Part shown: positions 1 through 14,793 of the stretch, piece after piece
Numbering within the stretch: position 1 is the stretch's first letter
Layout of the letters: each line of letters begins with the position of its first letter
NCBI RefSeq assembly: GCF_013033515.1
Contig: NZ_WQEG01000004.1
Span: 124,001-188,000, forward strand
DNA: 64,000 bases
Direction of reading: 5' to 3'
From: Ruegeria sp. HKCCA6707
GTDB lineage: Bacteria; Pseudomonadota; Alphaproteobacteria; Rhodobacterales; Rhodobacteraceae
Position numbers and translations under genes: made by a program
The notes under the pieces: generated by a model
Told to the model about the DNA's origin: nothing
Databases searched by the model: none
What the model saw: the letters and a program-made list of their open reading frames with translations, nothing else

Positions 1-96
1 GGAGTGATAGGGATCCAGCCGGAACGGATCCCCATTGAGGCGGCCATTGTAATAGCCCCGTGCCCGATAGAACATCTTGCGCAACTTGATAAGCAT
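1..96 (-). CDS. N-terminal fragment, possible FkbM-type methyltransferase
   Basis: An open frame reads leftward from an ATG whose complement is at 94-96 to the window edge, giving 32 residues without a stop. It is rich in Arg and Tyr and ends in a stretch with RLDPYHS. That look recalls the N-terminus of FkbM-family methyltransferases, but the catalytic SAM-binding part lies outside the window, so the family is a guess. It follows the GNAT-like gene on the same strand after about 80 bases and is probably the next gene of that operon. Confidence 0.4.
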   Translation of the reverse strand, partial: MLIKLRKMFYRARGYYNGRLNGDPFRLDPYHS

Positions 97-175
97 GGCC
101 GGCCTTTGCTGAGGTTTGGTCTTTGTTTGCAACTGCTTGTGACACAACTTGGCGCGCCACCCAAGGGCGCGCGGT

Positions 176-1039
176 TCAATCCAGCTTGAGCGACAGCAGC
201 TGAAGCTCGGTATAAAGGTGATCCAGCTCTGGCCCGTTCAGGCTCTTGGATTTCACAAAGCGCGGTGCGGGCAGTTTGATACGCGTCGCATCGTCTGGGT
301 CACCGCCGCAGAACCGCGCATCTGCCGAAAGCACCGCGTTGTCGGCTGGCAATAGGGCGTCTGCGATCTCTTGCCCGAAACGGGTCAGAAACCCCTCATG
401 CGCGTCACGAATATAGAGCACATCCCACCACGGCTGATCCGCCCCTTTTTGCGTCACCGAAAAGATGGCGAAGCTTTCACCTTCGGGGTGACGCATCAAC
501 ACCGGGCGCACCCCATAGGGCAGCAGATCCTGCATATATCGCGCCTCATGCGGCTGAAGATGCGGCAGCAGATCCGCAGGATCGGTGATCACGTCCAACA
601 ACTCCGACCCGGCGCTGCTCCGCTGCCAATCCCAGCGATAATCGTCCAAAGAGGCAAATCCGCAGGCCCTTAGCGCCGCCATCGTGCGCGGATTGCTGGT
701 GCTCGTCATGCTGGTATAGTGTCGATCCGGGTCAGCTGTGGCCCGGACCATCATCAGCAGCCCCGCACTGCCACGGTATTCCTTTTCCACATACCACGCG
801 CACATATTTGTCAGGTTCAGCACCCCTTGCGGCAACATGCGTTGGGAGTGAACGGCCCCCAGATAGCCCACAATGCGCCCATCAGCCTCGGCCACATAGC
901 CATAGTTGGGCTTGGGCATGTTCCAGTCATAATCAAAGATGCCGCGCCAGCGTTCTGGCGACAGTTTTGAGTTCATCTTGCCATGCAGCAGCGCCACTGC
1001 GGCCTCGGTATCCTCTTTTTCGGCAGGTCGGATGATCAT
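176..1039 (-). CDS. GNAT-fold acyltransferase-like protein
   Basis: 287 residues. The ATG at 1039 overlaps the stop of the upstream deacetylase-like gene as ATGA, and the protein then begins with a typical GNAT first strand (MIIRPAEKED). A longer frame from 1114 would lie inside the neighbour. The N-terminal half resembles acetyl/acyl-CoA N-acyltransferases: a strand with YGYVAEADGRIVGYLGAV at about residues 46-63, then a long helix and a segment (SNPRTMAALRACGF) typical of the C-terminal part of the GNAT fold. The C-terminal third is unassigned. Next to a deacetylase-like protein and a carrier-protein/AMP-ligase set, a role in acylating an amino sugar or other amine is plausible; the substrate is unknown. 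Confidence 0.7.
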   Translation of the reverse strand: MIIRPAEKEDTEAAVALLHGKMNSKLSPERWRGIFDYDWNMPKPNYGYVAEADGRIVGYLGAVHSQRMLPQGVLNLTNMCAWYVEKEYRGSAGLLMMVRATADPDRHYTSMTSTSNPRTMAALRACGFASLDDYRWDWQRSSAGSELLDVITDPADLLPHLQPHEARYMQDLLPYGVRPVLMRHPEGESFAIFSVTQKGADQPWWDVLYIRDAHEGFLTRFGQEIADALLPADNAVLSADARFCGGDPDDATRIKLPAPRFVKSKSLNGPELDHLYTELQLLSLKLD

Positions 1040-1863
1040 GACGCCAAAACCTCGCTGGGCGCGGGAAACCGGACAGCCGGATGCGCCGTGAGGTGCCCCA
1101 AAAGCGTTTCGCAAAAATCCCAGGTGGCGGCGTCGTGATCGATATGATGGGTTAGCAGCCCGGTGGGTTCAGCCGCATCGGCAGAACCGGTCCGACGCGC
1201 GATCAAATGGTCGGTGAGGAACGATATGGATTTGGCCGTGCCGGTAAACCGGGCGCCGCCTTTCCATTTGATTGGATCGCAATGGCTGTTGACCAAGCGC
1301 AGCCCCGGCGCGGCCTCTGCCGCCGGCCGCGCATCACACAAGGACAGCGCGGTATAGCCCAACGCCGGAAGCCCCGCGACAACGCTCGGGTCAATGCGGT
1401 TCCAAGGGGGCACCATGACAGGTAGAAACCGGTCAGGCCCAAACAGCTCCGCCAGGACCCGGCGGCCTTGTTGCAGCTCGTCCAAAACAGTCTCTAACTG
1501 TCTATGACGGCCCAATTCCCACGCGCCTTTGTCACCGCTGCCCTTGGCGTGGTTAATATGCGCATACCCGTGCTGCGCGACATAGGCAGTTGGATGGGCC
1601 AGAACCGTGTCGGCAAAGGCAACATCCGCAGTCGCCGGAATCGAGGCCAGAACAACGGGTGTGCCGGTCTTGGCCGACAGCGACAGCAGACGCGACAGCT
1701 GTGGACCGGGGCGCGAGGCATCATCATCGCGCCACCAGAACGTGGCGATGCGTCCTTGAGCGTGCCATTGATCCAGTTCGGCGTTGAGCGTGTCCCAGGC
1801 TTCTGTATGTGCTGCCTCGGTCGAATTTGGCATGTCGCTATCTTGCGTCACCATAAGCCCCAT
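1036..1863 (-). CDS. Polysaccharide deacetylase-like (NodB-fold) protein
   Basis: 275 residues, about the size of a single NodB-homology domain. A WRDDD motif at residues 44-48 corresponds to the metal-binding and catalytic aspartates of carbohydrate esterase family 4. HGYAH at 98-102 corresponds to the His-x3-His metal site. A later PPWNR segment matches the family's third motif. No signal peptide is seen, so it probably acts in the cytosol, on an activated sugar or lipid-linked precursor rather than mature polymer. The ATG at 1863 has a GGGGCGAG stretch about ten bases upstream; internal ATGs at residues 4 and 11 are alternatives. It is the first gene of a leftward operon diverging from the AMP-ligase operon across 188 bases. 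Confidence 0.75.
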   Translation of the reverse strand: MGLMVTQDSDMPNSTEAAHTEAWDTLNAELDQWHAQGRIATFWWRDDDASRPGPQLSRLLSLSAKTGTPVVLASIPATADVAFADTVLAHPTAYVAQHGYAHINHAKGSGDKGAWELGRHRQLETVLDELQQGRRVLAELFGPDRFLPVMVPPWNRIDPSVVAGLPALGYTALSLCDARPAAEAAPGLRLVNSHCDPIKWKGGARFTGTAKSISFLTDHLIARRTGSADAAEPTGLLTHHIDHDAATWDFCETLLGHLTAHPAVRFPAPSEVLAS

Positions 1864-2051: not shown

Positions 2052-3245
2052 ATGATCCTTCACGACCAAACCACCCCGGACTTTCTGCACGATCTTTCGC
2101 GGATGTGGCAGCCCGGCACGCCCAGCTTTGCCCTTCTGCCGCACCGGTTTGATCAGGACAGCGCGTGGGTCGAAGCCTGCGTGCAGGCGCTGCCCGAAAC
2201 TCTGCGCACCGATCATGTCTTGCTGGCCACGTCAGGCTCAACCGGGGCGCCCAAGCTGCTGGTGGCCAGCAGACTACGTGCCGAAGCCATCGCCGTTGAG
2301 ATCGGTCAGATGCAGGGCGTGGCCCCCGGGGATACGGCGATCATGACCCTGCCGCTCAGCTATTGTTTTTCTTTCGTAAACCAATGGGTGCTGGCACAGA
2401 AACAGAGTCTAAATAGGATCTTCGCGCGCTTGTCCGATCCGGACCACTTCGCAAAGGTTCTGGGGGAAAGCGAACGGGGTTTGCTCTGCCTTGTAGCGGC
2501 CCAAGTGCCGTTGCTGAGCGCTTTGGGTGAAGTCAGCTTTCACAAAATCAAGACCGTGGCATTTGCAGGCAGCCCGTTTCCCTGGGCTCAGTCCCACACC
2601 CTTGCCCGGCTGTTTCCCAATGCACGTTTCTTTGACAATTACGGCTGCGCCGAAGCCATGCCGCGCCTGACCATCGCGGACGTCACCGCGCATGTGCAGG
2701 CCGATACCACGCCGCCTTTGGGTCAGCTTGGTACTCCCTTGACCAGGATCACCCTGCGCAGCTCTGACAGCGGTGAGCTGCAATTCCAAAGCCCCTACGC
2801 CGCGCTGGGCTCTGTCGCGCCCGAGGGCTATACTCCCTTTGCGCCAGATGGCTGGATCGCGACCGGAGACCGCGCTGAGCAGGATAGCTCGGGTCATTGG
2901 CAGCTTCTGGGGCGCACAAGCGAAGTGTTCAAGCGCCATGGAGAAAAGATCTCGCTGCTGCGGCTACGGGAAACCATTGAAACCGTATGGGATCAGGAAT
3001 TCGTTCTGGCACCTGCAAAGGATCGCTCTGGCGAGCCCGGGGTGCAGCTGTTCCTGGCAGGGTCGGCGGATCGTGCCGCCGCACGCACGATCCTGCAAAG
3101 GTTTCGCGCGGCCCATCCGCGGGCACATTGGCCGCTGCAAATCATTCGCGTTGACAAGCTGCCACGGCTGAGCAATTCAAAAATCGATCTTCTGGCACTG
3201 GAAACGCTGCCGGATCAGGAAATCCTCTGGGATCAGCGCGTGTAA
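2052..3245 (+). CDS. AMP-dependent acyl ligase (ANL family), first gene of the Lux-like module
   Basis: 397 residues, short for an adenylate-forming enzyme (usually 500-600), mainly by a reduced N-terminal part. The nucleotide loop is LATSGSTGAPK at about residues 58-68. The ATP motif around DNYGCAEA is at 195-202, the TGD motif at 271-273, and the C-terminal catalytic Lys is in NSKID at about 377. It would adenylate a carboxylic acid and pass it to CoA or, given the adjacent carrier protein, to a phosphopantetheinyl Ser. It heads a compact five-gene rightward operon (ligase, carrier protein, alcohol dehydrogenase, LuxE-like, LuxC-like). The acid substrate cannot be read from the sequence. 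Confidence 0.8.
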   Translation: MILHDQTTPDFLHDLSRMWQPGTPSFALLPHRFDQDSAWVEACVQALPETLRTDHVLLATSGSTGAPKLLVASRLRAEAIAVEIGQMQGVAPGDTAIMTLPLSYCFSFVNQWVLAQKQSLNRIFARLSDPDHFAKVLGESERGLLCLVAAQVPLLSALGEVSFHKIKTVAFAGSPFPWAQSHTLARLFPNARFFDNYGCAEAMPRLTIADVTAHVQADTTPPLGQLGTPLTRITLRSSDSGELQFQSPYAALGSVAPEGYTPFAPDGWIATGDRAEQDSSGHWQLLGRTSEVFKRHGEKISLLRLRETIETVWDQEFVLAPAKDRSGEPGVQLFLAGSADRAAARTILQRFRAAHPRAHWPLQIIRVDKLPRLSNSKIDLLALETLPDQEILWDQRV

Positions 3246-3260
3246 AAGGAACAGATCTTC

Positions 3261-3503
3261 ATGACCAATCTCGAAAAGCTGCAGGATCTGCTTGAGGACG
3301 TGCTTTTGCTCGAAGACGGGCAGTTCTCGCTTGATCTGACGCGGGACGGGGTCGAGACGTGGGATTCGATGGCAACGGTTGCAGTGGCGATTGGGGTCGA
3401 AGAGGTGTTTGGTCATCACCCGACCGAAGAAGAAGCCATTGCGCTGGCCAGTGTCACGGACATTATCACCTTCCTGAAAGCCAAGGGTGTCGCCTTTGAT
3501 TGA
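3261..3503 (+). CDS. Acyl carrier protein-like protein
   Basis: 80 residues, acidic and helical. Ser36 in WDSMATV sits where carrier proteins have the phosphopantetheine Ser; the usual DSL is DSM here. The start ATG follows AAAGGAACAG. It begins 15 bases after the AMP ligase and overlaps the alcohol dehydrogenase gene, so the three are surely co-transcribed. Being a dedicated carrier inside a short operon, it probably receives the acyl group from the neighbouring ligase. The 4'-phosphopantetheinyl transferase needed for activation is not in the window. Confidence 0.8.
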   Translation: MTNLEKLQDLLEDVLLLEDGQFSLDLTRDGVETWDSMATVAVAIGVEEVFGHHPTEEEAIALASVTDIITFLKAKGVAFD

Positions 3504-4452
3504 CCTGCCCCCGCGCATCGCCCTGACGGATCTGCCCGATCTGCTGTCGGGTCGACGTGCGGTGATCACCGGCAGGGTGGCGGCAGCGCAGGATGTGCCC
3601 TCTTTGGCCGCGCTTCCCGTTGTCGAGACACCGGCTAAGACCCCCTCAGATGCAGATCTAGTGGTGGTGCTGGGCGGCGGTACGCGGCTGGACGCGGCAA
3701 AAGCCTGGCGCGGTCGCAACCGACCCGACTGCGCCTTGCTGGCCATCCCGACCCGGTTCGGTAGCGGGGCCGAGGCAAATGATATCGCCGTACTGGATGA
3801 TCGCGGTGCCAAGACCATTCAGAAAGGCCCGGAATTCCGGCCCGAATACCGGGCCTATCTGCCGGGTGTTTTGCAGACCCTGCCCGAGGACGCGCTTCTC
3901 TGGTCAAAAGGCGATGCGCTGACTCACGCTCTGGAAGGGCTCTTGTCCCCCCTGGCGACAGACGCGTTGCGCGCAGATCTTGCTGATGTACTACACACCA
4001 TGCTGGACCTGAGCGACCCCCGCGATGCCGAATGGTTCGAACTGTCCGCGCTGGCAAACGCGGGTCAAGCGCAGGCCTCGGTTGGTCTGGTGCATGGGCT
4101 GGCACATGTGCTTGAGGCCCCCGCGCGGGCCGAACTGGCTACAATGGGACGAGAGGATCAACTGGGTCACGCCCGCCTGTGTTCGGGCTTTCTGGCCCCG
4201 GTTCTGCGGTATAATTTCACGCGTTCAGACAAAGCGGCGGATCGCCTGAAAGCGGTGGGTATCGACCGCGATGCGCTGCTGGCGCTGGCCAATTCGATCT
4301 CGACCCCCGCACTTGATCTGCCCCTGGATTGGCCCGATTTGATCGAGGCACATTGGAAATCCATCCTGCGCGACTTCTGCACACGCACCAACGTCGCGAC
4401 GGTGCGGCCCGCCACGCTGACCGCTTTGATCACCGAGGTCAGCGCGCAATGA
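3487..4452 (+). CDS. Iron-containing alcohol dehydrogenase family protein
   Basis: 321 residues from GTG at 3487. TTG at 3496 is an equally good start because AAGGG lies eight bases before it; both overlap the carrier-protein gene. The nucleotide-binding GGG is at 63-65. Asp143 and His147 (GDALTH) and His203/His207 (VHGLAH) are the family's metal and catalytic residues. His228, followed 13 residues later by RYN, aligns with the last metal ligand, but an extra segment of about 11 residues lies between the last two His motifs. The family reduces aldehydes with NAD(P)H. Here it would convert the aldehyde from the LuxE/LuxC pair to an alcohol. It is shorter than typical family members (about 380). 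Confidence 0.75.
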   Translation: MSPLIDLPPRIALTDLPDLLSGRRAVITGRVAAAQDVPSLAALPVVETPAKTPSDADLVVVLGGGTRLDAAKAWRGRNRPDCALLAIPTRFGSGAEANDIAVLDDRGAKTIQKGPEFRPEYRAYLPGVLQTLPEDALLWSKGDALTHALEGLLSPLATDALRADLADVLHTMLDLSDPRDAEWFELSALANAGQAQASVGLVHGLAHVLEAPARAELATMGREDQLGHARLCSGFLAPVLRYNFTRSDKAADRLKAVGIDRDALLALANSISTPALDLPLDWPDLIEAHWKSILRDFCTRTNVATVRPATLTALITEVSAQ

Positions 4453-5495
4453 ACACGCTGCTCGACATGCCCGCCTATGGGCCCCGCGACGATACGGCGT
4501 TTTTGGCCGAGATGAACCGGCTGACCCGGTTTCACATCAACCATTGCCCGGAATACGCGCGGGTTTTCCCCGGTTTCACACCCACCACCAAGGTCGAGGA
4601 TCTGCCCTTTCTGCATGTCTCGGCCTTCAAAAATGTGTTGTTTCAAACCCAGGATGGGACGATCCGCCATGAAAGGGTGCTGAACTCATCCGCCACATCG
4701 TCGAACCTCTCCAGCCAAATTGCGCTGGATCGGGACAGCACCGCGTTACAGGCCAAAAGCAGCCGGGCCATCCTGTCGGATTTCATTGGTGAGGCCGAAC
4801 AACCGCTGATCATCCTCGACGCGAAATCGGCACTTGTGCAGCGTGGCACGGTCAGTGCCCGCATCGCGGCGGGGCTTGCGCTGCGCCCCTTTGCAACGCG
4901 GCTGTATTTCGGGCTGGCCTCGCAAGACCATGACAGTGCGGTCTTGTGGGATCACCTGCGCGATGCCCTGCACAGTAGCGATAGCGTTCTGGTTTATGGA
5001 TTTACCTGGGTCTTGTGGCGCATTTGGGCAGACAGCGACATGCCCGCAGATCTGGCCGAACGCCTGCGTGATGTAAAAGTGACTTATGTGCACAGCGGCG
5101 GTTGGAAAAAGCTGGAATCCGAACGGGTTGCGCCCGCCGCTTTGAAAGACAAATTGCTTGGGATTTCAGGCCCCGGATCTCAGATCATTGACTACTACGG
5201 GCTGGTTGAACAAAACGGGTTGCTCTATCCCGAATGCGTGGCGGGGTGGCGCCATGTCCCGGTTTGGGCCGATGTGCTGGGGCGTGATCCGATCAGCCAT
5301 GATGTGATCTATAACACGCCCGCACAGCTTCAGTTGATGAACGTGACACCACGCGGCGCGCCTTACCACAGCGTATTGACCGAAGATCAGGGCGAAGTGC
5401 GTCGCGATCCCTGCGCCTGTGGCCGGTCCGGGCGTCGGTTCAAGCTGCTGGGGCGCTTGCCCAAGTCCGAGACGCGGGGATGCGCCAATGTCTGA
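4449..5495 (+). CDS. LuxE-like acyl-protein synthetase
   Basis: 348 residues from the ATG at 4449, overlapping the preceding stop as ATGA. The protein matches the LuxE family of acyl-protein synthetases: a Ser/Thr-rich nucleotide loop (NSSATSSNLSSQ), a later YYGLVEQNG motif and a TEDQGEVRRD segment like the TGD region of adenylating enzymes. A CACGRSGRRFKLLGR segment follows. Cys345 lies four residues from the C-terminus; in luminous bacteria a Cys near the LuxE C-terminus carries the acyl group before reduction. With the LuxC-like gene next to it, it would activate or relay an acyl group for reduction. No luxA or luxB is nearby, so luminescence is not implied. Confidence 0.8.
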   Translation: MNTLLDMPAYGPRDDTAFLAEMNRLTRFHINHCPEYARVFPGFTPTTKVEDLPFLHVSAFKNVLFQTQDGTIRHERVLNSSATSSNLSSQIALDRDSTALQAKSSRAILSDFIGEAEQPLIILDAKSALVQRGTVSARIAAGLALRPFATRLYFGLASQDHDSAVLWDHLRDALHSSDSVLVYGFTWVLWRIWADSDMPADLAERLRDVKVTYVHSGGWKKLESERVAPAALKDKLLGISGPGSQIIDYYGLVEQNGLLYPECVAGWRHVPVWADVLGRDPISHDVIYNTPAQLQLMNVTPRGAPYHSVLTEDQGEVRRDPCACGRSGRRFKLLGRLPKSETRGCANV

Positions 5496-6684
5496 CACCT
5501 CCTCCGTCTACCACGGCTTTCGCGACGGCAACGGTGGCGTGGTTCAGGTTGCACTCCCCTTTGCGCTCGACGCTTTATGCGCCGAATATGACGAGGTGAC
5601 AGCCCGCATGGCACGGCGTACGGCCCCACCGGCATTCAGCCGCGACGAGTGGGGGTATCTTTTGGGCTTCATGCGCGGCTCAGCCCTGCGTGCGGTGTTC
5701 ACCCAAGGTTTTGGGCCTGCATCCGACGAACTGGATTCAATGCCTTTGCGCATCGCCCGCCCGCGCGCACATGTTGCGATCTGGCTGCCTAATAATGTCA
5801 GCCTTCTGGGGCCGCTAACGACCACTCTGTGTCTTTTGACCGGCGCGCATGTTCGCGCCAAGGCCGGAACGGGTTCAGAGAACCTGACGGCGCATCTGCG
5901 AGATGAAATCCTGGAAAACGGGGCCGGGCCAATCCTGACACGGCTCTGGCAACAGAACCTGACCGTCGAACAGTTTGACCGCCACGACCCCAGAAATGCA
6001 GACTGGTCTTCTGCCGCAGATGCGCGGATCTTCTTTGGTTCTGACACCGCTGCATTGTCGGTCGAATCTCTGCCACACAAGCCGGGCACACCCTTCTTTG
6101 CCTTTGCCGATCACAGCTCGCTGGTTTGGGCTGACCCCACAGCGCTTGATGACGCAGCGCTGACCACTTTGCTGCGTGTCTTCAGGATCTATGGCAAGGC
6201 TGGATGCACGTCGCCGCAAAGCCTTGTGCTGATCGACGCAGAGCCCAAAGACGCAATCGCTACCGCCAACCGGCTAAAGGATCTGAGCGATGCGCAGAAG
6301 GGCACAAACCCGCCCGTTCATATCGCATCTGACAGCTTCATGGCCGATCAGGTGGCCCGCGCCAATGGCTGGCATGCGGTGCGCACCGATAACAGGGATG
6401 CGGTATTCGTGGCCGGAGCGTCAGCATCCAAGGACTTGCCGGGGCTGATGAGCCTGAGCGTCATCGCACAGCCGCGCGAAGAGGCCCTCGCGACGTTGCC
6501 GGATGAAATACAAACTGTCGGGCATATCGCTGGTCCAGACAGGCTGCGAGATTGGGCGCTGTCCCTGACGGGCAGCCGGGCGTTGCGCTTTGTACCCGTG
6601 CAGCAGATGCATCATTTCGGTCCATTCTGGGACGGTCAGCCCTTCTGGCGCGGGCTTTTTCAAGATCTCGACATTCGTATCTGA
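5488..6684 (+). CDS. LuxC-like acyl reductase
   Basis: 398 residues from the ATG at 5488, overlapping luxE-like by eight bases; the longer frame from 5419 lies inside luxE. The protein belongs to the LuxC acyl-CoA reductase family of the aldehyde-dehydrogenase fold. WLPNNVSLLGP at about 99-109 fits the nucleotide-binding region. Cys240 in GCTSPQ is the expected catalytic Cys that accepts the acyl group. It should reduce an acyl thioester, supplied by the LuxE-like partner or the carrier protein, to an aldehyde using NADPH. It is the last gene of the operon and ends 12 bases before the convergent ROK regulator. Confidence 0.8.
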   Translation: MSDTSSVYHGFRDGNGGVVQVALPFALDALCAEYDEVTARMARRTAPPAFSRDEWGYLLGFMRGSALRAVFTQGFGPASDELDSMPLRIARPRAHVAIWLPNNVSLLGPLTTTLCLLTGAHVRAKAGTGSENLTAHLRDEILENGAGPILTRLWQQNLTVEQFDRHDPRNADWSSAADARIFFGSDTAALSVESLPHKPGTPFFAFADHSSLVWADPTALDDAALTTLLRVFRIYGKAGCTSPQSLVLIDAEPKDAIATANRLKDLSDAQKGTNPPVHIASDSFMADQVARANGWHAVRTDNRDAVFVAGASASKDLPGLMSLSVIAQPREEALATLPDEIQTVGHIAGPDRLRDWALSLTGSRALRFVPVQQMHHFGPFWDGQPFWRGLFQDLDIRI

Positions 6685-6696
6685 TCCCAAAAACCC

Positions 6697-7920
6697 CTAT
6701 GTCCGGAGCATGAACCGTTCCGACAGGGGCAGGCTTGCCGCCCCCAACGGGCGCGCGCGGGCGCCAAGGGTTCCGGCCTGAACATCGGGTCGGATCAAGC
6801 CAGAAAGAGGCATTTGGTCCAGCGCCGCGGATACGCGGGCCACGATCTTGTCGCGCAAAGTGTCTGGCATGTTGCCGTCGATCAGTATCGCGGGGAAATC
6901 GATGATCGAACACGCGCCCACAATCAACTGGGTCAAGGGTGGAATGGCATCCTCCAACCAGTCTTCGATCATCTCATGTTCGGCGGGTGACCACTCGGCG
7001 GCGACCTGAGACGACAGCTGCTCTTGTCCGGTACGGGCGAATAACCGGCGTTCCAGCCCGATCATCGAGGCCTTGTCGATAAGCTGCGAGGCCTCGCCTC
7101 TCTGGGACAGAATAGGAAAAGGCCCCACCGCACCTGCGTTGCCCGCGCGCCCGGCGTAAAGCGCGCCGTTCAACACCACACCTCCACCCACGAAATACCC
7201 GATATATATATAGAGAAAATCGGGTGGGAGCTCGGACGTTCCAAAGGTGAGTTCGGCCCCGCAGGCGCTGGTTGCGTCATTCCCCAGGTACACGGGAAAA
7301 TCGACAAGGGCATCGATTTCGGCGGCAAGGTCAAATCCCTTCCAGCCAGCCATCTTTTGCGGCTCTATTCCAATGACATTCGCCCATTCCCACAGGAAAT
7401 AGGGTGAGGCGACACCCATACCGGCGATGCGGGCTTGTTGTGCCGCAGGCAAGGTCGCGCACAGCTCGGCGACCGCGTCTTTCACAAAGGCCAGCACCTC
7501 TTGCGGGGTCGGATAGGCATAGTCCTTGTGGATATGCGCCAGCTCTTGCCCAACAAAATTGACAAGGGTCAGTTCAGTGGACCTCCGCCCGACCTTTAGC
7601 CCCAGAAAATAAGCGCCATCTGGCGCCAATCGCATCGGGATCGAAGGTTGACCTATTTTGCCACGGATCTTTTCGCCCTTTTGCAGCAGCCCGTCTCGCT
7701 CCAGGGCACGCATGATAACCGACACGGTTTGAGCCGAAAGTCCGGTCTTTCGGGCCAGATCGGCCTTGGGCAGAGGTCCTTGGCGGCGCAGGATAGTCAG
7801 CACCAGACGCTCGTTCCGTTCACGCATGGCGATGTGATTTGAGCCCGAATTCTCAAATTTATCTACGTTTTCAGATAGTTTTAAATTCGGTCCATCCACG
7901 GCACGTTTTCCCTTCGGCAC
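6697..7920 (-). CDS. frcR: ROK-family transcriptional regulator, probable FrcR
   Basis: 407 residues from a GTG at 7920. A winged helix-turn-helix at about residues 36-85 contains LPKADLARKTGLSAQTVSVI. A ROK sugar-binding/kinase-fold domain follows. The Cys-rich zinc motif of ROK sugar kinases is absent, as in many regulators. It is divergent from the fructose-type operon with 147 bases between starts, the arrangement of frcR next to frcBCAK in rhizobia. It probably binds one or both palindromes at 7956-7970 and 8013-8029 and is relieved by a sugar ligand. The gene name rests on this context. Confidence 0.8.
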   Translation of the reverse strand: MPKGKRAVDGPNLKLSENVDKFENSGSNHIAMRERNERLVLTILRRQGPLPKADLARKTGLSAQTVSVIMRALERDGLLQKGEKIRGKIGQPSIPMRLAPDGAYFLGLKVGRRSTELTLVNFVGQELAHIHKDYAYPTPQEVLAFVKDAVAELCATLPAAQQARIAGMGVASPYFLWEWANVIGIEPQKMAGWKGFDLAAEIDALVDFPVYLGNDATSACGAELTFGTSELPPDFLYIYIGYFVGGGVVLNGALYAGRAGNAGAVGPFPILSQRGEASQLIDKASMIGLERRLFARTGQEQLSSQVAAEWSPAEHEMIEDWLEDAIPPLTQLIVGACSIIDFPAILIDGNMPDTLRDKIVARVSAALDQMPLSGLIRPDVQAGTLGARARPLGAASLPLSERFMLRT

Positions 7921-7955
7921 TAGAATGGCGGCAGGTCATATATCTCGTCAATACT

Positions 7956-7970
7956 AAATCAAGTTGATTT
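7956..7970. promoter_or_regulatory. Perfect palindrome, candidate FrcR operator 1
   Basis: AAATCAAGTTGATTT is a 15-base perfect inverted repeat with a single central base. It lies between the divergent frcR and frcB genes, just upstream of the candidate frcB -35 box. Position and symmetry suit a regulator site controlling either promoter; binding is inferred. Confidence 0.5.
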
Positions 7971-7975
7971 ATTTA

Positions 7976-8005
7976 TTGACCGCAGAGGCGAATCGCAATT
8001 ACGAT
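7976..8005 (+). promoter_or_regulatory. Candidate frcB promoter
   Basis: TTGACC at 7976-7981 and TACGAT at 8000-8005, separated by 18 bases, resemble sigma-70 -35 and -10 elements. Transcription would start near 8012, at the edge of the second palindrome. The -10 match is only four of six, so confidence is moderate to low. Confidence 0.4.
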
Positions 8006-8012
8006 CCTGACA

Positions 8013-8029
8013 GCGCAATTCAATTGCGC
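8013..8029. promoter_or_regulatory. Perfect palindrome, candidate operator 2 at the frcB start site
   Basis: GCGCAATTCAATTGCGC is a 17-base perfect inverted repeat with one central base. It is located immediately after the predicted transcription start and 38 bases before the frcB ATG. A repressor bound here would block initiation or early elongation. Its half-site differs from the upstream palindrome except for a shared CAA/TTG core. Confidence 0.5.
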
Positions 8030-8067
8030 GGGTGGGCCAAGCCTGCCCGATCTACTGGGAGGATATC

Positions 8068-9075
8068 ATGAAGACATTACTGACAGCCGCTTTTGCGGCC
8101 ACTGTGGCGTGGTCTGGCGCGGCGTTTGCAGAGACAAGCGTTTGCCTGATTACAAAGACCGACACGAACCCGTTTTTCGTGAAGATGCGCGAAGGCGCCG
8201 AGGCAAAAGCAGCTGAGCTGGGCATGACGCTCAAGTCTTTTGCAGGCAAGATCGACGGCGACCATGAAACTCAGGTTCAGGCGATCGAAACCTGTATCCT
8301 TGACGGAGCTTCGGGCATTCTGCTGACCGCTTCTGATACATCATCCATCGTTCCCGCCGTGAAACAGGCGCGCGATGCGGGGCTTTTGGTCATTGCTTTG
8401 GACACACCACTGTCTCCGATTGACGCTGCCGATGCGACCTTTGCCACTGACAACTTCCTGGCAGGTGAGCTGATCGGAAAATGGGCGGCTGGCACGATTG
8501 GCGATACATCTTCGGCCAAGATCGGCATGATGAATATCAATGTATCGCAGCCCACCGTAGGCGTTCTGCGCAATCAGGGTTTCCTCCAGGGCTTTGGCAT
8601 CGACCTTGGTGATCCGGCCAAGTGGGGCGATGAAACCGACGCGCGGATCGTGAACAACGAGGTGACAAACGCCAATGAAGAAGGTGGCCGCAAGTCGATG
8701 GAAAACTTGTTGACCATGGACGCAGGCACCAACGTTCTTTACACAATCAACGAACCGGCAGCCGCTGGTGCACATGAGACGCTGAAGGATTTCGGCAAAG
8801 TCGATGATGTGATCGTGGTATCCGTCGATGGCGGTTGTCCGGGCGTACAGGCCGTTGCCGATGGTGCAATTGGCGCGACCTCACAGCAATACCCGCTGCT
8901 GATGGCATCTTTGGGTGTTGAGGCGGTGAAAGCCTGGGCCGATACGGGTGCGAAGCCTGAGAATACACCTGGCAAAGACTTCTTCGACACAGGTGTGGCC
9001 CTTGTCACCGATAACCCGGTCGATGGTGTTCCTTCGATCTCATCGGCTGAAGGGCTAGAGCTCTGCTGGGGCTGA
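8068..9075 (+). CDS. frcB: Sugar ABC transporter periplasmic binding protein (FrcB-like)
   Basis: 335 residues from the ATG at 8068, preceded by GGGAGG. The longer frame from 8032 lacks this. A signal peptide is clear (cleavage after AFA, about residue 21). The mature protein has the periplasmic binding protein-like I fold of ribose/fructose binders: a [15 protein letters not shown] start, a DTPLSP strand and [12 protein letters not shown]. The adjacent permease, ATPase, P-loop kinase-like protein and divergent ROK regulator match the rhizobial frcBCAK locus, a fructose importer. Sugar specificity is inferred from that synteny. Confidence 0.87.
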
Positions 9076-9093
9076 TCTGATCCCGAACATATC

Positions 9094-9120
9094 ACGGAGG
9101 GCGCAGCCTGTGCCCTCCGT
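9094..9120 (+). promoter_or_regulatory. Stem-loop between frcB and frcC
   Basis: A perfect nine-base stem (ACGGAGGGC with GCCCTCCGT) encloses a nine-base loop; no T-run follows. Such hairpins after binding-protein genes usually protect the upstream mRNA from 3' decay and help raise binding protein over permease levels, which is the likely role here. Confidence 0.6.
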
Positions 9121-9181
9121 TCTGCCTCAGGCACCCAAAGCCTGAAACACCGCAATCCTGCATACGCGCCAAGGGGGGATC

Positions 9182-10252
9182 ATGTCCGACAGCAAGGCAG
9201 AAAAGGAATTCGAATCGGGGCTGGTCGGCGCCGAAGACACGGTTGCCGAGTTTGAAGACACGCGGAAGGGTATCATCGGGCGCATCCAGCACTCGCTGCA
9301 TGTCAATCCGGCTTTGGTGCCGCTGATCGTCCTTTTGGCCTCGGTCATCCTGTTCGGAATGCTGATTGGCCAACGGTTCTTTTCTCCCTTCGCTATGACG
9401 CTGATCCTGCAACAGGTTCAGATCGTGGGCATCGTGGCTGCGGCTCAAAGCCTGGTGATCCTGACCGCAGGCATCGACCTGAGCGTTGGTGCGATCATGG
9501 TGTTGTCATCCGTGGTCATGGGCCAGTTTACCTTCCGCTATGGGATGCCGGTGGAGCTTGCCGTACTGTGCGGCCTGTCCGTTGGCATGATCTGCGGGCT
9601 GATCAACGGTTGGTTGGTCGCCTATATGAAGCTGCCGCCCTTCATCGTGACCCTGGGCACTTGGCAGATCATTCTGGCGGCGAACTTCCTCTATTCCGCC
9701 AATGAAACCATCCGCAGCGCGGATATCGAAGAGGTGGCTCCCTTGCTGCAAATCTTCGGTACCAAGTTCAAAGTTGGAGATGCACAACTGACGCTGGGCG
9801 TGATCTTCATGCTCGCGCTGGTGTTCACGCTGGCCTATGCGCTGAAACAGACCGCCTGGGGAAGGCATGTTTACGCGGTGGGCGACGACCCGGATGCAGC
9901 TGAACTGGCCGGCGTAAACGTCAAACGCACGCTGATTTCGGTCTATCTGTTATCCGGTTTGATCTGCGCCTTTGCAGGCTGGGCCATGGTCGGACGCATC
10001 GGATCGATCTCGCCCACGGTCGGACAGTTGGCCAATATCGAAAGCATCACCGCCGTGGTGATCGGAGGCATATCGCTATTCGGAGGGCGCGGCTCGATCC
10101 TGGGCGCGCTATTCGGAGCACTTATCGTTGGCGTGTTCACCCTTGGGCTGCGCCTGCTTGGGGCCGACGCCCAATGGACCTTCCTTCTGATCGGCCTGCT
10201 TATCATTGCCGCCGTCGCCGTTGATCAATGGATCAGAAAGGTATCTGCATAA
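9182..10252 (+). CDS. frcC: Sugar ABC transporter permease (FrcC-like)
   Basis: 356 residues; ATG at 9182 after AGGGGGGATC. A polar N-terminus of about 45 residues precedes eight to ten hydrophobic segments. The family signature regions are present: LTAGIDLSVGAIM near the middle of the first half, LPPFIVTLGT, and VYAVGDDPDAAELAGVNV in the cytoplasmic coupling loop. It forms the inner-membrane channel of the FrcBCA importer. Its stop overlaps the ATG of frcA by one base. Confidence 0.87.
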   Translation: MSDSKAEKEFESGLVGAEDTVAEFEDTRKGIIGRIQHSLHVNPALVPLIVLLASVILFGMLIGQRFFSPFAMTLILQQVQIVGIVAAAQSLVILTAGIDLSVGAIMVLSSVVMGQFTFRYGMPVELAVLCGLSVGMICGLINGWLVAYMKLPPFIVTLGTWQIILAANFLYSANETIRSADIEEVAPLLQIFGTKFKVGDAQLTLGVIFMLALVFTLAYALKQTAWGRHVYAVGDDPDAAELAGVNVKRTLISVYLLSGLICAFAGWAMVGRIGSISPTVGQLANIESITAVVIGGISLFGGRGSILGALFGALIVGVFTLGLRLLGADAQWTFLLIGLLIIAAVAVDQWIRKVSA

Positions 10253-11022
10253 TGGAACCGATCCTCAAAGCCCGAAACCTGGTCAAACGCTATGGGCGTG
10301 TAACGGCCTTGGATCATTGCGATTTTGAGCTTATGCCCGGTGAAATCCTAGGCGTGATCGGCGATAACGGGGCCGGTAAATCGACCCTAATCAAAGCCCT
10401 ATGCGGCGCCGTCATCCCTGATCAGGGCGAGGTGTTTCTGGATGGAACCAAAGTCGCGTTCTCATCACCGATCGAAGCGCGCGAACAAGGCATCGAAACC
10501 GTCTATCAGACCCTGGCCATGAGCCCTGCACTTTCGATTGCAGACAACATGTTCATGGGGCGCGAGTTGCGCAAACCTGGCATCATGGGCAAAGTCTTTG
10601 GTCAACTCGACAAAAAGAAGATGCAGGATTTCGCGCGCGAAAAACTCACCGAGTTGGGCCTGATGACGATCCAGAATATCAACCAAGCGGTTGAAACATT
10701 GTCGGGCGGGCAGCGGCAGGGCGTGGCTGTGGCACGCGCGGCTGCCTTTGGATCCAAGGTTATTATCCTGGACGAACCGACTGCGGCGCTCGGCGTCAAG
10801 GAAAGCCGCCGCGTGCTGGACCTGATCCAGGATGTCAAAGCGCGCGGTATCCCGATCATCCTGATCAGCCACAACATGCCTCATGTGTTCGAGGTCTGCG
10901 ACCGCATCCATATCCACCGCCTTGGCAAGCGCCTGACTGTCATTGATCCGAAAGACCATGAAATGTCCGACGCCGTCGCTTATATGACCGGCGCGAAAAG
11001 GCCGGAAACAGCCGCTGCGTGA
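10252..11022 (+). CDS. frcA: Sugar ABC transporter ATP-binding protein (FrcA-like)
   Basis: 256 residues from the ATG at 10252, overlapping the frcC stop (TAATG). It is a single ABC domain, as in FrcA, unlike the duplicated RbsA type. Walker A GDNGAGKST is at 37-45. The Q-loop is in VYQTLAM, the signature is LSGGQRQ, Walker B is VIILDEP and the switch His is in LISHNM. It powers uptake through FrcC. The stop is overlapped by the GTG of the kinase gene. Confidence 0.87.
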   Translation: MEPILKARNLVKRYGRVTALDHCDFELMPGEILGVIGDNGAGKSTLIKALCGAVIPDQGEVFLDGTKVAFSSPIEAREQGIETVYQTLAMSPALSIADNMFMGRELRKPGIMGKVFGQLDKKKMQDFAREKLTELGLMTIQNINQAVETLSGGQRQGVAVARAAAFGSKVIILDEPTAALGVKESRRVLDLIQDVKARGIPIILISHNMPHVFEVCDRIHIHRLGKRLTVIDPKDHEMSDAVAYMTGAKRPETAAA

Positions 11023-11654
11023 CACCCATGGATCTCGAGGAACAGGTCAACCGCATTGTTGCATTGATTAAGCCGTCCAAGGTCAAAGACACACGCCAGT
11101 TGATCGCAATCGCCGGGCCACCCGCATCGGGCAAGTCCACGCTTGCCGAAAAGGTCCGCCAACGGCTTGAGAAAAACGGGATACCCTGCGGGCTGGTGCC
11201 CATGGACGGCTTTCATCTGGACAATGACACTCTGTCAAATCGCGGTCTTCTGGCCCGTAAAGGTGCGCCTGAAACCTTTGATACCGAAGGGTTCAACGAT
11301 CTTCTTTCGCGCGCATTACGCGAAGACACCGTCACCGTTCCGTTGTTTGATCGAAGCAGGGATTGCGTCGTTCAGAACGCTGCGCGCATTGACGTGTCTC
11401 AAAGACACGTGGTCGTTGAGGGCAACTATCTCTTTCTAAAAGATCCAGCATGGCGCCCTTTGACCCAATACTGGTCGTTGAGCGTGTTTATTGAACCCAA
11501 GCTTGATGTGCTCAAAGAGCGACTGATAAACAGATGGCTCGATCATGGCTATCACCCAAACCAAGCGCTTGAAAAAGCAACTGAGAACGACCTTGTCAAC
11601 GCAAGGCTTGTTCTTGAACAATGCGACAGATCGGTGGTCGATCTGATCCTTTGA
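11019..11654 (+). CDS. frcK: P-loop kinase-like protein (FrcK-like)
   Basis: 211 residues from GTG at 11019 (GTGA overlap with frcA); the ATG at 11028 is an alternative. A P-loop GPPASGKST is at 33-41 and is followed by the pantothenate/uridine-kinase-type motif MDGFHLDN. A VVEGNYL strand and a C-terminal helix typical of that kinase group follow. FrcK of rhizobia is a putative kinase in the fructose operon whose substrate is unsettled. This protein could phosphorylate the imported sugar or a derivative. Last gene of the operon. Confidence 0.75.
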   Translation: MTPMDLEEQVNRIVALIKPSKVKDTRQLIAIAGPPASGKSTLAEKVRQRLEKNGIPCGLVPMDGFHLDNDTLSNRGLLARKGAPETFDTEGFNDLLSRALREDTVTVPLFDRSRDCVVQNAARIDVSQRHVVVEGNYLFLKDPAWRPLTQYWSLSVFIEPKLDVLKERLINRWLDHGYHPNQALEKATENDLVNARLVLEQCDRSVVDLIL

Positions 11655-11991: not shown

Positions 11992-12993
11992 TTATTTCGA
12001 ACGATCTCTCTTCATTCGCCGTCGGATTCGACCGATGTAGATGAGACGAGGCAGTTTATGCGGATAGCGGATAGCCAATTGCAATAAACTACGCTCGTCT
12101 TCGAGAAGCTTCTCAAAACGGCCTTCCTTCTTTAGCCACCTTGGGGCAATCGACCTAAATTTTTCTTCGAACGTAATCTCGTCAGAGTCAGTCGACGCGT
12201 TGGAATCTCTTGTCTGAATAGGTTTTTCTGTCCGAATTTTTTCTCTCCGCACATACCGTTTCACAAAATCCTGACCATAGAACCTTTCGACTACCTTCTC
12301 AGGATGGTTTGAATATCTACTGTAAACATCGGCCCACTCGGCAACGCAGCGTGTTGCGTTTTGTGCGGAAAACCCTCCGCCATAGTACCTGCATACGAAC
12401 AGTTCAGCATGCTGAATTTGGTAACCCTTTGCATGCGCACGAAGCAGCAGATCGTGGTCCGCGACAATGCGTAGCTGAGTGTCAAAGGGTTCTTTCGCAA
12501 GCAACTCACGTTTGTAGAAGGTTGCCTGATGGCAGGGAAAACGTCCATGCCAGCCACCTTCTAAATTACCATCAGATAAACGTTTGGCGAGCTGATCCAT
12601 TCCAGAAGCTCTTCGGAAATGATGAGCGCCGCCGGACACGTAGTCATGGTCACCATATAGAATATCGGGTTCGTTTCGCAGAAACTGTGAGACCTCTGTC
12701 AAAGTGTCCTGCTTGAAGAAGATGTCACCGGAATTCAGAAACACGACATATTCACCGGTAGCTTTTTCACACGCGGTATTCATCGCCGCGTACACACCCT
12801 CGTCAGGGCAAGACGCATAATAATCAAAGGCTTCTTTATACCGATTGAGATACTGGCGGCCAGGGTCAGACCAGCTGGACCCATCAAGAACGACCCATTC
12901 GACTTCTGTGTAATTCTGCGCAAGAACGCTTTCTGCTGTCCTGGCAAAGTCACTGTCAGGGTTAAGAACAATTGTGACGACCGAGATTTTCAT
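11992..12993 (-). CDS. Glycosyltransferase family 2 protein
   Basis: 333 residues. The GT-A start MKISVVTIVLN is followed by VEWVVLDGSSWSDPG (about 32-45), the nucleotide-sugar region, and VVFLNSGD (83-90), the DXD-like metal site. A catalytic-base region around ADHDLLLRA follows. The C-terminal 80 residues are basic and of no known domain. It transfers a sugar to a surface glycan, substrate unknown. Its ATG overlaps the stop of the upstream glycosyltransferase (ATGA). Base composition is clearly more AT-rich than the flanking frc and lacI-type genes, suggesting acquisition. Confidence 0.85.
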   Translation of the reverse strand: MKISVVTIVLNPDSDFARTAESVLAQNYTEVEWVVLDGSSWSDPGRQYLNRYKEAFDYYASCPDEGVYAAMNTACEKATGEYVVFLNSGDIFFKQDTLTEVSQFLRNEPDILYGDHDYVSGGAHHFRRASGMDQLAKRLSDGNLEGGWHGRFPCHQATFYKRELLAKEPFDTQLRIVADHDLLLRAHAKGYQIQHAELFVCRYYGGGFSAQNATRCVAEWADVYSRYSNHPEKVVERFYGQDFVKRYVRREKIRTEKPIQTRDSNASTDSDEITFEEKFRSIAPRWLKKEGRFEKLLEDERSLLQLAIRYPHKLPRLIYIGRIRRRMKRDRSK

Positions 12994-14018
12994 TGACGAA
13001 GACCAGCTTGGATTGTCACTTGGCGTTCAAACTCGGATCCGGGGTCCGAGGTGTAAGCGGAGTACCCCTGCGTGAGAACGTCTTCGAGCCGTTTCACGTC
13101 CTGCAGCCAATTATTGCGACCGCGCGCTACGCTTTCAAGAATCCGGTCTGACATCTCCAAGAGACCATTTTCGGTCAGAGATGGAAGACTTTCTGAGCCA
13201 TGGTTTTTTCCAAGCAAAAAACCGGTCTCTCCGTCCGAAATGTATTCGTTTAGCGTAGGTTTGTCCGGTCCAATGACAATTTGCCCGCTCGCCATTGCTT
13301 CAAGAAAGCTCATTCCAATACCTTCGGCTTCACGCGGTGCAAAATAGACGGCATGTTTACGCGCTTCTGCGATAGCCTGTTCTTTGCTGTCGTACCACTC
13401 GGAAAACGCAAGCTCGATCGCAGGCCCACCAGACGAAGCGGCGGCCAACAGTGTTGCTTTTCGCTCTTCGATCTCAGACGAAAAATCTCCGGCAAGATGT
13501 ATTTGTAGTTTTTGGATCCCAAGAACGCGACACGCCTCGATTACTGTTTCTCCGTCATAATCCGTGCCCGGTCGACGTTCCCAGAAATATGCAGATAATG
13601 GCCCGTCAGCTTGCCAAAGCCTTGTCTCGACCTCGGGATAATACCGAACCAGGACACTGTTGCAGCGAGCAGCTTGAAGAATGGAATGCATAGCAAAGCT
13701 GAACGATACAAAGGTTGCTCTTGGAAATCGTTGCCAAAATTCTTCTTTCAGCTGAATCGAGCCATCATACATTGGAATAATATTGAATTGTCCGGAAACG
13801 TGATGGTAAAGCCGGCTCGCTGCGAGTTCTGATTGCCAAAAAAATAGATGTTCATACTCGTTATCGAGAAACGGAGTATAGTCAAACCCGTAAGGGTCAG
13901 CTGGATCGAAAAAGAAAGAGTCAACTTCGAAGAACTTCGATACGATTTCTTGAAAAAACTTACTCGACCCAGTTTTTTCGTGAAATGTATGTCCAATAAA
14001 GGCAGCGCGCTTTTTCAT
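12990..14018 (-). CDS. Glycosyltransferase, GT-B fold (family 4-like)
   Basis: 342 residues from ATG at 14018 (MKKRAAFIGHTF), seven bases after the sulfotransferase stop; a 20-residue longer frame would start inside that gene. The C-terminal half carries the retaining GT-B signature APREAEGIGMSFLEAMASG, with the two Glu of the E-x7-E motif. ISDGETGFLLG follows. The N-terminal acceptor domain is unlike common families. Middle gene of the sulfotransferase-GT-GT operon; codon use is AT-rich. Likely builds a sulfated or locally decorated glycan; donor sugar unknown. Confidence 0.75.
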   Translation of the reverse strand: MKKRAAFIGHTFHEKTGSSKFFQEIVSKFFEVDSFFFDPADPYGFDYTPFLDNEYEHLFFWQSELAASRLYHHVSGQFNIIPMYDGSIQLKEEFWQRFPRATFVSFSFAMHSILQAARCNSVLVRYYPEVETRLWQADGPLSAYFWERRPGTDYDGETVIEACRVLGIQKLQIHLAGDFSSEIEERKATLLAAASSGGPAIELAFSEWYDSKEQAIAEARKHAVYFAPREAEGIGMSFLEAMASGQIVIGPDKPTLNEYISDGETGFLLGKNHGSESLPSLTENGLLEMSDRILESVARGRNNWLQDVKRLEDVLTQGYSAYTSDPGSEFERQVTIQAGLRQ

Positions 14019-14025
14019 TATCTCA

Positions 14026-14793
14026 CTATTCCAGAATCTTTGGCCAATTTTGTATTTCTTGTGCGGAAATTTCGTCAACTTTCTTGATGATTTTTTTGCT
14101 CAAAACGAGCTTATCGTAACTGTTTGCGGCCTCACCATGGTTTGGTCTGTTGACAACACGGTTTTGTTTCCAAAAGGCAGCTAACGCCTCAGAGTCTCTG
14201 GTTCCAAGAGAAAGAAATCTTCTAATCTCGTCGACAACATTTTCAGGCCTGTCTCTTAGGTCAGGCTGAAAAATTTCCAAACGCTTCTCTTCGGGGATAT
14301 GACTTCGCATTTTCCGCCAAGCCTCTTGGCATTTAACCCAGCGGTTCGCTACTTCCAGCTCTTTTCCATTCAAGATATCTGGCCAAGTTGCGACGTTCGA
14401 ACGTACAGCTTCACGCGGATCTCTGTAAATATAAAAAAACCACGCTTCGGGGAACAGTTCGATGAGTGCTGGAATTGCGTTCACCTGTTGAATATCAGGT
14501 GTTTTATCAATCCACTTTAAAGAGTCTGCATCCAGGGAATTAATAAAAGCTTCGTCAACGGCCTTGGCAATTGAAGAAAACAGCGCAGCTTTGGCACTTT
14601 CTTCCCGAACGATACAATTCGGATTAACTCGATTGTCTCTGATGCGCAGTATTGCCTCAGTAAAGAGGTATATAAAATGACCCTCTTTAGAGTAAGACGC
14701 AAATCCGTCCAAACAGCTTAATCCACTCGCTAACCCAGTGGTCCCAGAACGAGGAAAGCCTAAAATAAAGATAGGTCCACATACGGATTTCAT
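14026..14793 (-). CDS. PAPS-dependent sulfotransferase family protein
   Basis: 255 residues. GFPRSGTT at 12-19 is the 5'-phosphosulfate-binding loop and YIYRDPREAVRS at 121-132 is the 3'-phosphate-binding motif of PAPS sulfotransferases. A central KTPD element also fits. It would move sulfate from PAPS to a hydroxyl on a glycan or lipid, releasing PAP, which CysQ-type nucleotidases remove. It is the first gene of a leftward three-gene operon with two glycosyltransferases. The gene is AT-rich with many AAA, GAA and TTT codons, unlike the GC-rich core. Confidence 0.85.
   Translation of the reverse strand: MKSVCGPIFILGFPRSGTTGLASGLSCLDGFASYSKEGHFIYLFTEAILRIRDNRVNPNCIVREESAKAALFSSIAKAVDEAFINSLDADSLKWIDKTPDIQQVNAIPALIELFPEAWFFYIYRDPREAVRSNVATWPDILNGKELEVANRWVKCQEAWRKMRSHIPEEKRLEIFQPDLRDRPENVVDEIRRFLSLGTRDSEALAAFWKQNRVVNRPNHGEAANSYDKLVLSKKIIKKVDEISAQEIQNWPKILE

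Follow-up and report, generated by a model that had tools for sequence, protein, structure and literature searches.

What LuxC- and LuxE-like proteins do in non-luminous bacteria is the question raised by the 64,000-nucleotide stretch of Ruegeria sp. HKCCA6707 analysed here (the window; contig NZ_WQEG01000004.1, positions 124,001 to 188,000 of the forward strand), in which both are encoded within a tight operon of five genes. This module is real and conserved, and we consider it most likely an operon for the acyl decoration of glycans rather than a stripped lux system; the reason for its LuxC and LuxE would then be the supply of hydroxyacyl groups for sugars. More specifically, and with moderate confidence, we propose that the operon makes a short hydroxyacyl group on an acyl carrier protein (ACP), and that this hydroxyacyl-ACP is the donor for N-acylation of an amino sugar in a glycan of the cell surface, as has been proposed for the tetronate of Vibrio cholerae O1. 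The five genes, in window coordinates, are as follows.

2052..3245, + strand: short AMP-forming acyl ligase, 397 amino acids (aa); PF00501, 5.7e-12
3261..3503, + strand: dedicated ACP, 80 aa; WDS motif, weak NCBIfam ACP matches
3487..4452, + strand: iron-containing alcohol dehydrogenase (Fe-ADH), 321 aa; PF00465, 1.6e-8
4449..5495, + strand: LuxE-like acyl-protein synthetase, 348 aa, with Cys345 in an RGC motif; PF04443, 5.6e-35
5488..6684, + strand: LuxC-like acyl reductase, 398 aa, with Cys240; PF05893, 5.3e-11

All five open reading frames (ORFs) at 2052-6684 are intact with one stop each, and the last four overlap in turn by 17, 4 and 8 bases; the starts of the LuxE-like and LuxC-like ORFs were picked inside longer open frames. 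The Pfam matches of the ligase, Fe-ADH, LuxE and LuxC are all above the curated cut-offs. The ACP has no Pfam match at 1e-3, and its assignment relies on the WDS serine motif together with weak NCBIfam ACP matches (3.4e-4, far under cut-off). The GC content of the module is 60.6%, as compared to 57.2% downstream and 54.1% upstream. A scan for promoters and terminators gave no promoter-like site and one terminator-like site, on the opposite strand, with both results below those of shuffled sequences.

The PF05893 family of LuxC also matches 9 of 14 control genomes, seven of them over the cut-off, so the family match alone is weak; the Ruegeria genome itself has two matches, one in the module and the other on contig C1 (28.7 bits, over cut-off). 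Because this model is so loose, the structure of LuxC was predicted as a further test. The model, built from the alignment of nine relatives, has a pLDDT of 88.6 and its best match in the PDB is LuxC itself (7xc6_A, from the Photobacterium phosphoreum LuxC-LuxE complex; E 3.6e-16, TM 0.73), with aldehyde dehydrogenases ranking next at 3e-12 and weaker; a profile search of the PDB with LuxC gave no match. The profile of the LuxE clade found the solved LuxE of the same complex (7xc6_E) at 1.5e-19. The five gene identities assigned in the original prediction, which had been made from the letters alone, are thus borne out by Pfam, motifs and the LuxC fold search.

The same five-gene order, which that prediction had suggested looking for in other genomes, was found in eight further loci. 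An alignment scan with LuxE covered one genome per species over 84,980 species, and the best 80 of its 557 relatives were considered; eight of these 80 are set apart at 46-53% identity to the window protein, the other 72 lying at 32-37%. We refer to the window and these eight (L018-L024 and L026) as the Fe-ADH-type set (n=9), and to the other 72 (L025 and L027-L097) as the distant loci. The order ligase, ACP, Fe-ADH, LuxE, LuxC is kept in 9/9 Fe-ADH-type loci, LuxE and LuxC being separate genes in every copy, and the nine come, according to record titles and the taxonomy in the LuxE tree, from six phyla: Pseudomonadota (the window, L018, L019 and L024), Acidobacteriota (L020), Myxococcota (L021), Kiritimatiellota (L022), Verrucomicrobiota (L023) and Planctomycetota (L026). 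A gene order shared over six phyla rules out chance. As far as the open-access literature goes this version of the module is apparently undescribed, a statement we make tentatively.

Within the family LuxE relatives are uncommon: 2 of 295 genomes have one, as do 5 of 390 in an order sample (the Ruegeria genome included in both). The window LuxE is 53% identical to gammaproteobacterial copies as compared to 46% to the copy in L024, of the Rhodospirillales, which on sequence identity suggests transfer. No close LuxE relative was found in viral contigs or in a single-protein search of genome contigs, and a search for the window LuxC in plasmids gave no match. In a LuxE tree of 51 rows (the nine Fe-ADH-type copies, a hand-picked 28 of the 72 distant loci, L006-L010 with L014-L016, and the six loci labelled as fused, L123-L128) the nine form a single clade with support of 100/99. 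The tree does not include L171 and L172, two further loci to which we return below, and in one of the six, L127, LuxE is a gene of its own, placed on a very long branch and unlike the tetronate kind. Since long branches meet at the fused group, we do not claim a sister group for the clade.

The residues expected from the families to be catalytic are conserved across the set. Ser36 of the ACP (WDS), D143, H147, H207 and H228 of the Fe-ADH, Cys345 of LuxE and Cys240 of LuxC are each invariant in 9/9 copies; the Fe-ADH ligand columns align with those of a solved Fe-ADH, and the other LuxE motifs are also kept. The TSGxTGxP loop and Lys377 of the ligase are invariant in the eight aligned copies (that of L021 is cut by the contig start), although the loop lysine is an arginine in L019, and the eight full-length ligases have 392-397 aa.

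The genes that adjoin the relatives point to sugars. A WecD-like gene is present in 7/9 loci (L018-L023 and L026), directly after LuxC in six and one gene further on in L019; the predicted structure of its product (pLDDT 89.6) best matches the TDP-fucosamine acetyltransferase WecD in the PDB (2fs5; E 1.2e-10, TM 0.74), and the two copies tested were unnamed by any Pfam or NCBIfam model. A glycosyltransferase of the GT2 family resembling ArnC occurs in five of the nine (L019, L020, L022, L023 and L026), and a WecE-like aminotransferase in four (L019, L020, L022 and L023). The two WecE-like proteins tested, from L019 and L020, pass the NCBIfam threshold for dTDP-4-amino-4,6-dideoxygalactose transaminase; for the GT2 proteins of the same loci the nearest model is undecaprenyl-phosphate amino-arabinose transferase, with scores under the cut-off. 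The contigs of L018 and L021 are each about 5 kb long.

From this gene content we infer a substrate, an order of steps and an acceptor. LuxE would take a small diacid, activate one of its carboxyls on Cys345 and hand the acyl group to Cys240 of LuxC, which would reduce it to the aldehyde with a nicotinamide cofactor; the Fe-ADH would reduce the aldehyde to the alcohol; the AMP ligase would then load the remaining carboxyl onto the ACP; and an N-acyltransferase, WecD-like in seven of the nine copies, would move the acyl group to the sugar. The simplest guesses as to the substrate might be malate, giving 2,4-dihydroxybutanoyl, or succinate, giving 4-hydroxybutanoyl. In this reading every one of the five genes has a single part to play, and the WecD-like enzyme receives its donor. 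The original prediction had read the genes as leading from acid to acyl thioester to aldehyde to alcohol, with a glycan substituent as one guess at the purpose. The acid-reduction chemistry and that guess both find support here; the alcohol as end product has become less likely, given that seven of the nine copies adjoin a gene for an N-acyltransferase, an enzyme whose donor would have to be an acyl thioester.

An altered phosphate loop in LuxE nevertheless keeps that serial route open. In the window protein this loop is SSATSS, as compared to SSGT in distant relatives, and the glycine is replaced by alanine or serine in 9/9 Fe-ADH-type copies; SSGT is found in 83/83 LuxE ORFs of the distant loci (the 72 with L006-L010 and L014-L016). 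The ligase retains its own loop. It may be, then, that the ligase makes acyl-ACP, that LuxE is an ATP-free transacylase drawing on the ACP, and that LuxC and the Fe-ADH release an alcohol, either free or bound to another carrier. We regard this as unlikely: the N-acyltransferase genes beside seven of the nine copies need an acyl donor and not an alcohol, Cys345 and the other LuxE motifs are kept, and relatives with a normal loop in which LuxE and LuxC are fused (L123, L124, L128 and L129) also have a ligase and an Fe-ADH. Two further fused proteins, those of L171 and L172, show the same change of the loop glycine to alanine, while the other six carry SSGTSG, so that the loop change accompanies complete Fe-ADH arrays with an ACP among their genes. 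Its presence in L171 and L172 makes the loop a weaker argument for the serial route, although the route stays open. Judged from the aligned loops, either LuxE tolerates the change, or it no longer adenylates, and the second case would favour the serial route. A decidedly unlikely combination would have LuxE in Fe-ADH-type arrays shuttling between ACP and LuxC without ATP, the operon as a carrier-bound carboxylate reductase building the acyl group of an amino sugar, and its transfer over at least six phyla. The shared loop change represents a defined puzzle as to how the thioester forms.

Alternatively, the steps might proceed in another order to the same product, with one carboxyl of the diacid first attached to the ACP, and LuxE, LuxC and the Fe-ADH reducing the far carboxyl there. 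Such an order would account for the two activating enzymes and for a tight operon with a private ACP. The RfbL ligase of V. cholerae O1 is described, in the available part of the published account, as acting on 2,4-dihydroxybutanoate, which is a finished acid, and we think this variant very unlikely.

It might also be asked whether the module makes a fatty aldehyde or fatty alcohol, or is the remnant of a bioluminescence operon, as the folds and motifs of LuxC and LuxE could suggest. The original prediction, which noted the absence of luxA, luxB and luxD, would have been contradicted by homologous clusters containing luciferase genes, and no such cluster came up in the genomes covered, within the limits given here. 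The luciferase family PF00296 is a broad one (it matches 10 of 14 controls), and its matches in the Ruegeria genome are confined to contigs C12 and C29, with none on the module contig C25, which agrees with the absence of luxA and luxB there; luxD was not searched. The genomes of four relatives have PF00296 matches, on contigs that were not mapped to that of the module. Sugar genes adjoin the relatives, and the nearest published arrays, as far as their descriptions extend, are glycan ones. We consider a fatty or remnant lux function highly improbable, and the lux remnant was rejected on the lack of PF00296 from contig C25.

More distant relatives carry related enzymes in other combinations. 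The 72 distant loci have, no more than 6 kb from LuxE and on its strand, a longer AMP ligase in 70, LuxC in 66, a short-chain dehydrogenase/reductase (SDR) in 42, GT2 in 22 and a WecE-like gene in 21; in 57 of these loci the sequence extends at least 4 kb to each side. The SDR of this distant type would replace the Fe-ADH; none of the nine Fe-ADH-type loci has an SDR match in the stretches read, the nearest to the window module lying more than 7 kb upstream (L003), and three of the 30 distant loci lacking an SDR have a weak Fe-ADH match. Annotated SDR-type examples include Deinococcus sp. NW-56, amid glycosyltransferases, and Ponticoccus alexandrii, where LuxC stands apart. A profile search with the nine LuxC proteins gave matches in 20 of 398 genomes of a phylum sample (E up to 1e-5) and in 36 of 394 of an order sample (1e-6). 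Rhizobium plasmids and genome G521 have LuxE-LuxC with added transketolase-like or NeuB-like genes, and DegT in L010 and L016. The region L016:2431-11615, with several genes identified by eye, encodes an AMP ligase, a NeuB-like synthase, a thiamine-enzyme-like and a dehydratase-like protein, ACP, LuxC, LuxE and a DegT aminotransferase, and here the LuxC aldehyde may feed a sugar-acid condensation. In L099:8410-13287, on a Salmonella plasmid, and in L127:987-5811, LuxE lies near a gene for an AMP-binding or LuxC-like protein and one for a phenylacetate-CoA-ligase-like protein, the latter named from the annotation in L099 and by eye in L127.

Among the loci read after the LuxC profile search, a single frame of 820-825 aa with LuxE followed by LuxC is found in eight (L123-L126, L128, L129, L171 and L172), and the LuxC cysteine is kept in all eight. 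The arrays of L171 and L172 run ACP, AMP ligase (473 aa), Fe-ADH (374 aa), fused LuxEC (825 aa), GNAT-like and deacetylase-like, while L123, L124, L128 and L129 have an Fe-ADH (in two pieces in L123), the fused protein and an AMP ligase. By BLAST against L172, with E values for three large subject proteins, the window LuxE is 32% identical (2e-44), the Fe-ADH 26% (2e-12), LuxC 24% (3e-10) and the AMP ligase 22% (5e-9), and on this sequence comparison we judge that the fused array is homologous to the window module. For the GNAT-like and deacetylase-like proteins of L171 and L172 we claim no homology to the window proteins of those kinds, the probabilities from profile comparison being 5% and 3%. 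The fused array at L171:1104-13795 adjoins genes that by eye resemble those of nonulosonic acid synthesis (NeuB-, NeuC- and NeuD-like, with an aminotransferase), and a hydroxyacyl group there may go onto a nonulosonic acid.

Several results weigh against an ACP-borne donor for amino-sugar N-acylation. No result fixes the substrate, and the loss of the loop glycine in 9/9 copies puts the use of ATP by LuxE in doubt. The stretches of the window and L024 gave no match to the WecD-like, WecE-like or ArnC-like GT2 profiles used, and the Ruegeria genome has no WecD-like match at 1e-3 in a search that lacked a positive control. A Mantel test of co-inheritance among the five proteins was mixed, with p < 0.05 in six of ten protein pairs, 0.06 for LuxE-LuxC and significance for the ACP in one of its four pairs. 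The divergent deacetylase- and GNAT-like genes beside the window operon, listed below, occur also without the module. As for the likeness to V. cholerae O1, its proteins were compared by description only, and the tetronate pathway is called putative in the title of the paper. The ligases of L171 and L172 score 162-168 bits with the SDR-type profile and 50-55 with that of the window clade, and their LuxC 132-136 and 90 bits respectively, so a special kinship of these two proteins to the window clade is not shown. On the other hand, contig C29 of the Ruegeria genome encodes a dTDP-glucose dehydratase scoring over cut-off, and on C1 a WecE query gave three partial matches; an amino-sugar acceptor could therefore be made elsewhere in the genome.

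Two divergent genes upstream of the operon are weak candidates for partners of the window module.

176..1114, - strand: GNAT-like acyltransferase; Acetyltransf_9, 1.7e-4, under cut-off
1036..1863, - strand: polysaccharide-deacetylase-like protein, by sequence read by eye; no Pfam match at 1e-3

There is a weak case for the GNAT-like gene as the acyltransferase of the module, and a homolog of it lies directly before the SDR-type module in L097. Counting the Ruegeria genome itself, it was found in two of 54 members of the genus, the second copy having one internal stop, and in 4 of 248 genomes of a family sample. The deacetylase-like and GNAT-like genes form a trio with an FkbM methyltransferase gene, at window positions 1-1863 and L003:17338-18147, and the trio recurs at L142:9236-11883 in the same genus; the deacetylase-GNAT pair is found in L147 and L148, and no module gene was seen in the stretches read of L142, L147 and L148. 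A fixed place for these genes in the module was rejected, since trio and pairs are found without module genes.

Other features lie nearby. Downstream, at 6697-11654, a ROK-type repressor gene lies beside a kinase-like gene and a sugar ATP-binding cassette transporter; the arrangement resembles that of a common sugar uptake operon, with no apparent relation to the module. The - strand of 11992-14793 encodes a GT2, a group 1 glycosyltransferase and a sulfotransferase in a low-GC stretch (about 45-48%), perhaps a separate acquired glycan island; its GT2, at 11992-12993, gave no score with the ArnC-like profile. Outside the window, some 10.6 kb upstream of the module on contig C25 (L003:8275-9480), a reverse transcriptase near PADLOC RT_UG9_small (5.8e-166) is a candidate anti-phage protein of the defence-associated reverse transcriptase (DRT) kind. 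The module itself has no PADLOC match, and a defence function for it was rejected on that result.

How, then, does the module compare with known systems? With luxCDE of Photobacterium phosphoreum it shares the LuxC fold and the LuxE match given above, and it differs in its ACP, AMP ligase and Fe-ADH, in the altered LuxE loop and in the lack of a luciferase gene on its contig. WecE and WecD serve in dTDP-Fuc4N synthesis and N-acetylation, and genes like both adjoin relatives of the module; neither was seen next to the window copy. Acetyl-CoA is the donor of WecD, whereas the one proposed here is an acyl-ACP.

Flagellin glycosylation islands of Aeromonas are described, in the parts of the accounts available, as containing ACP, 3-oxoacyl-ACP reductase, AMP synthetase, LuxE and LuxC, and islands of Enterobacteriaceae are listed with the same genes, for which the authors suggest a "liposugar" (PMC7874193, PMC4875605). 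Like the window module, this set has ACP, AMP ligase, LuxE and LuxC amid glycan genes; it has an SDR in place of the Fe-ADH and a ligase of about 440-475 aa, and LuxE proteins of this type are 29-37% identical to that of the window and lie in other branches of the tree.

The nearest comparison is with V. cholerae O1, where, in the available part of the literature (with PMC3441752, PMC12208996, PMC4772473, PMC9201469 and PMC2890568 also drawn on), VC0248-VC0252 (rfbK-rfbL-rfbM-rfbN-rfbO) are assigned to tetronate synthesis, and tetronate is attached to perosamine at its amino groups. RfbL is reported there to activate 2,4-dihydroxybutanoate, putatively onto coenzyme A or the carrier RfbK, a LuxE domain is noted in RfbN, and WbeL (RfbL) has 471 aa. 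By these descriptions the set has, like that of the window, a carrier protein, an AMP ligase, an Fe-ADH, and acyl-protein synthase and acyl-CoA reductase activities. The original prediction had seen a lux module to which ligase, ACP and alcohol dehydrogenase were added; with the full five-enzyme set published for tetronate synthesis, as far as that account extends, this is not so, and ligase and ACP are standard parts. The likeness rests on published gene descriptions, with L171 and L172 as the sequence-compared arrays of the same order. The differences are that LuxE and LuxC are separate in the window and fused in RfbN; that the window order is ligase, ACP, Fe-ADH, LuxE, LuxC as compared to ACP, ligase, Fe-ADH, LuxEC in VC0248-VC0251, as in L171 and L172; and that the window ligase is about 75 aa shorter. 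With the WecE-like and WecD-like profiles used, no genes for making or N-acylating an amino sugar were recognised next to the window copy, although the divergent GNAT-like gene lies there. In-vitro tests of the enzyme steps were not found in the literature as far as it was available, and the five-gene unit with its WecD-like partner represents a small protein set with which a tetronate-type route could be assayed outside V. cholerae.

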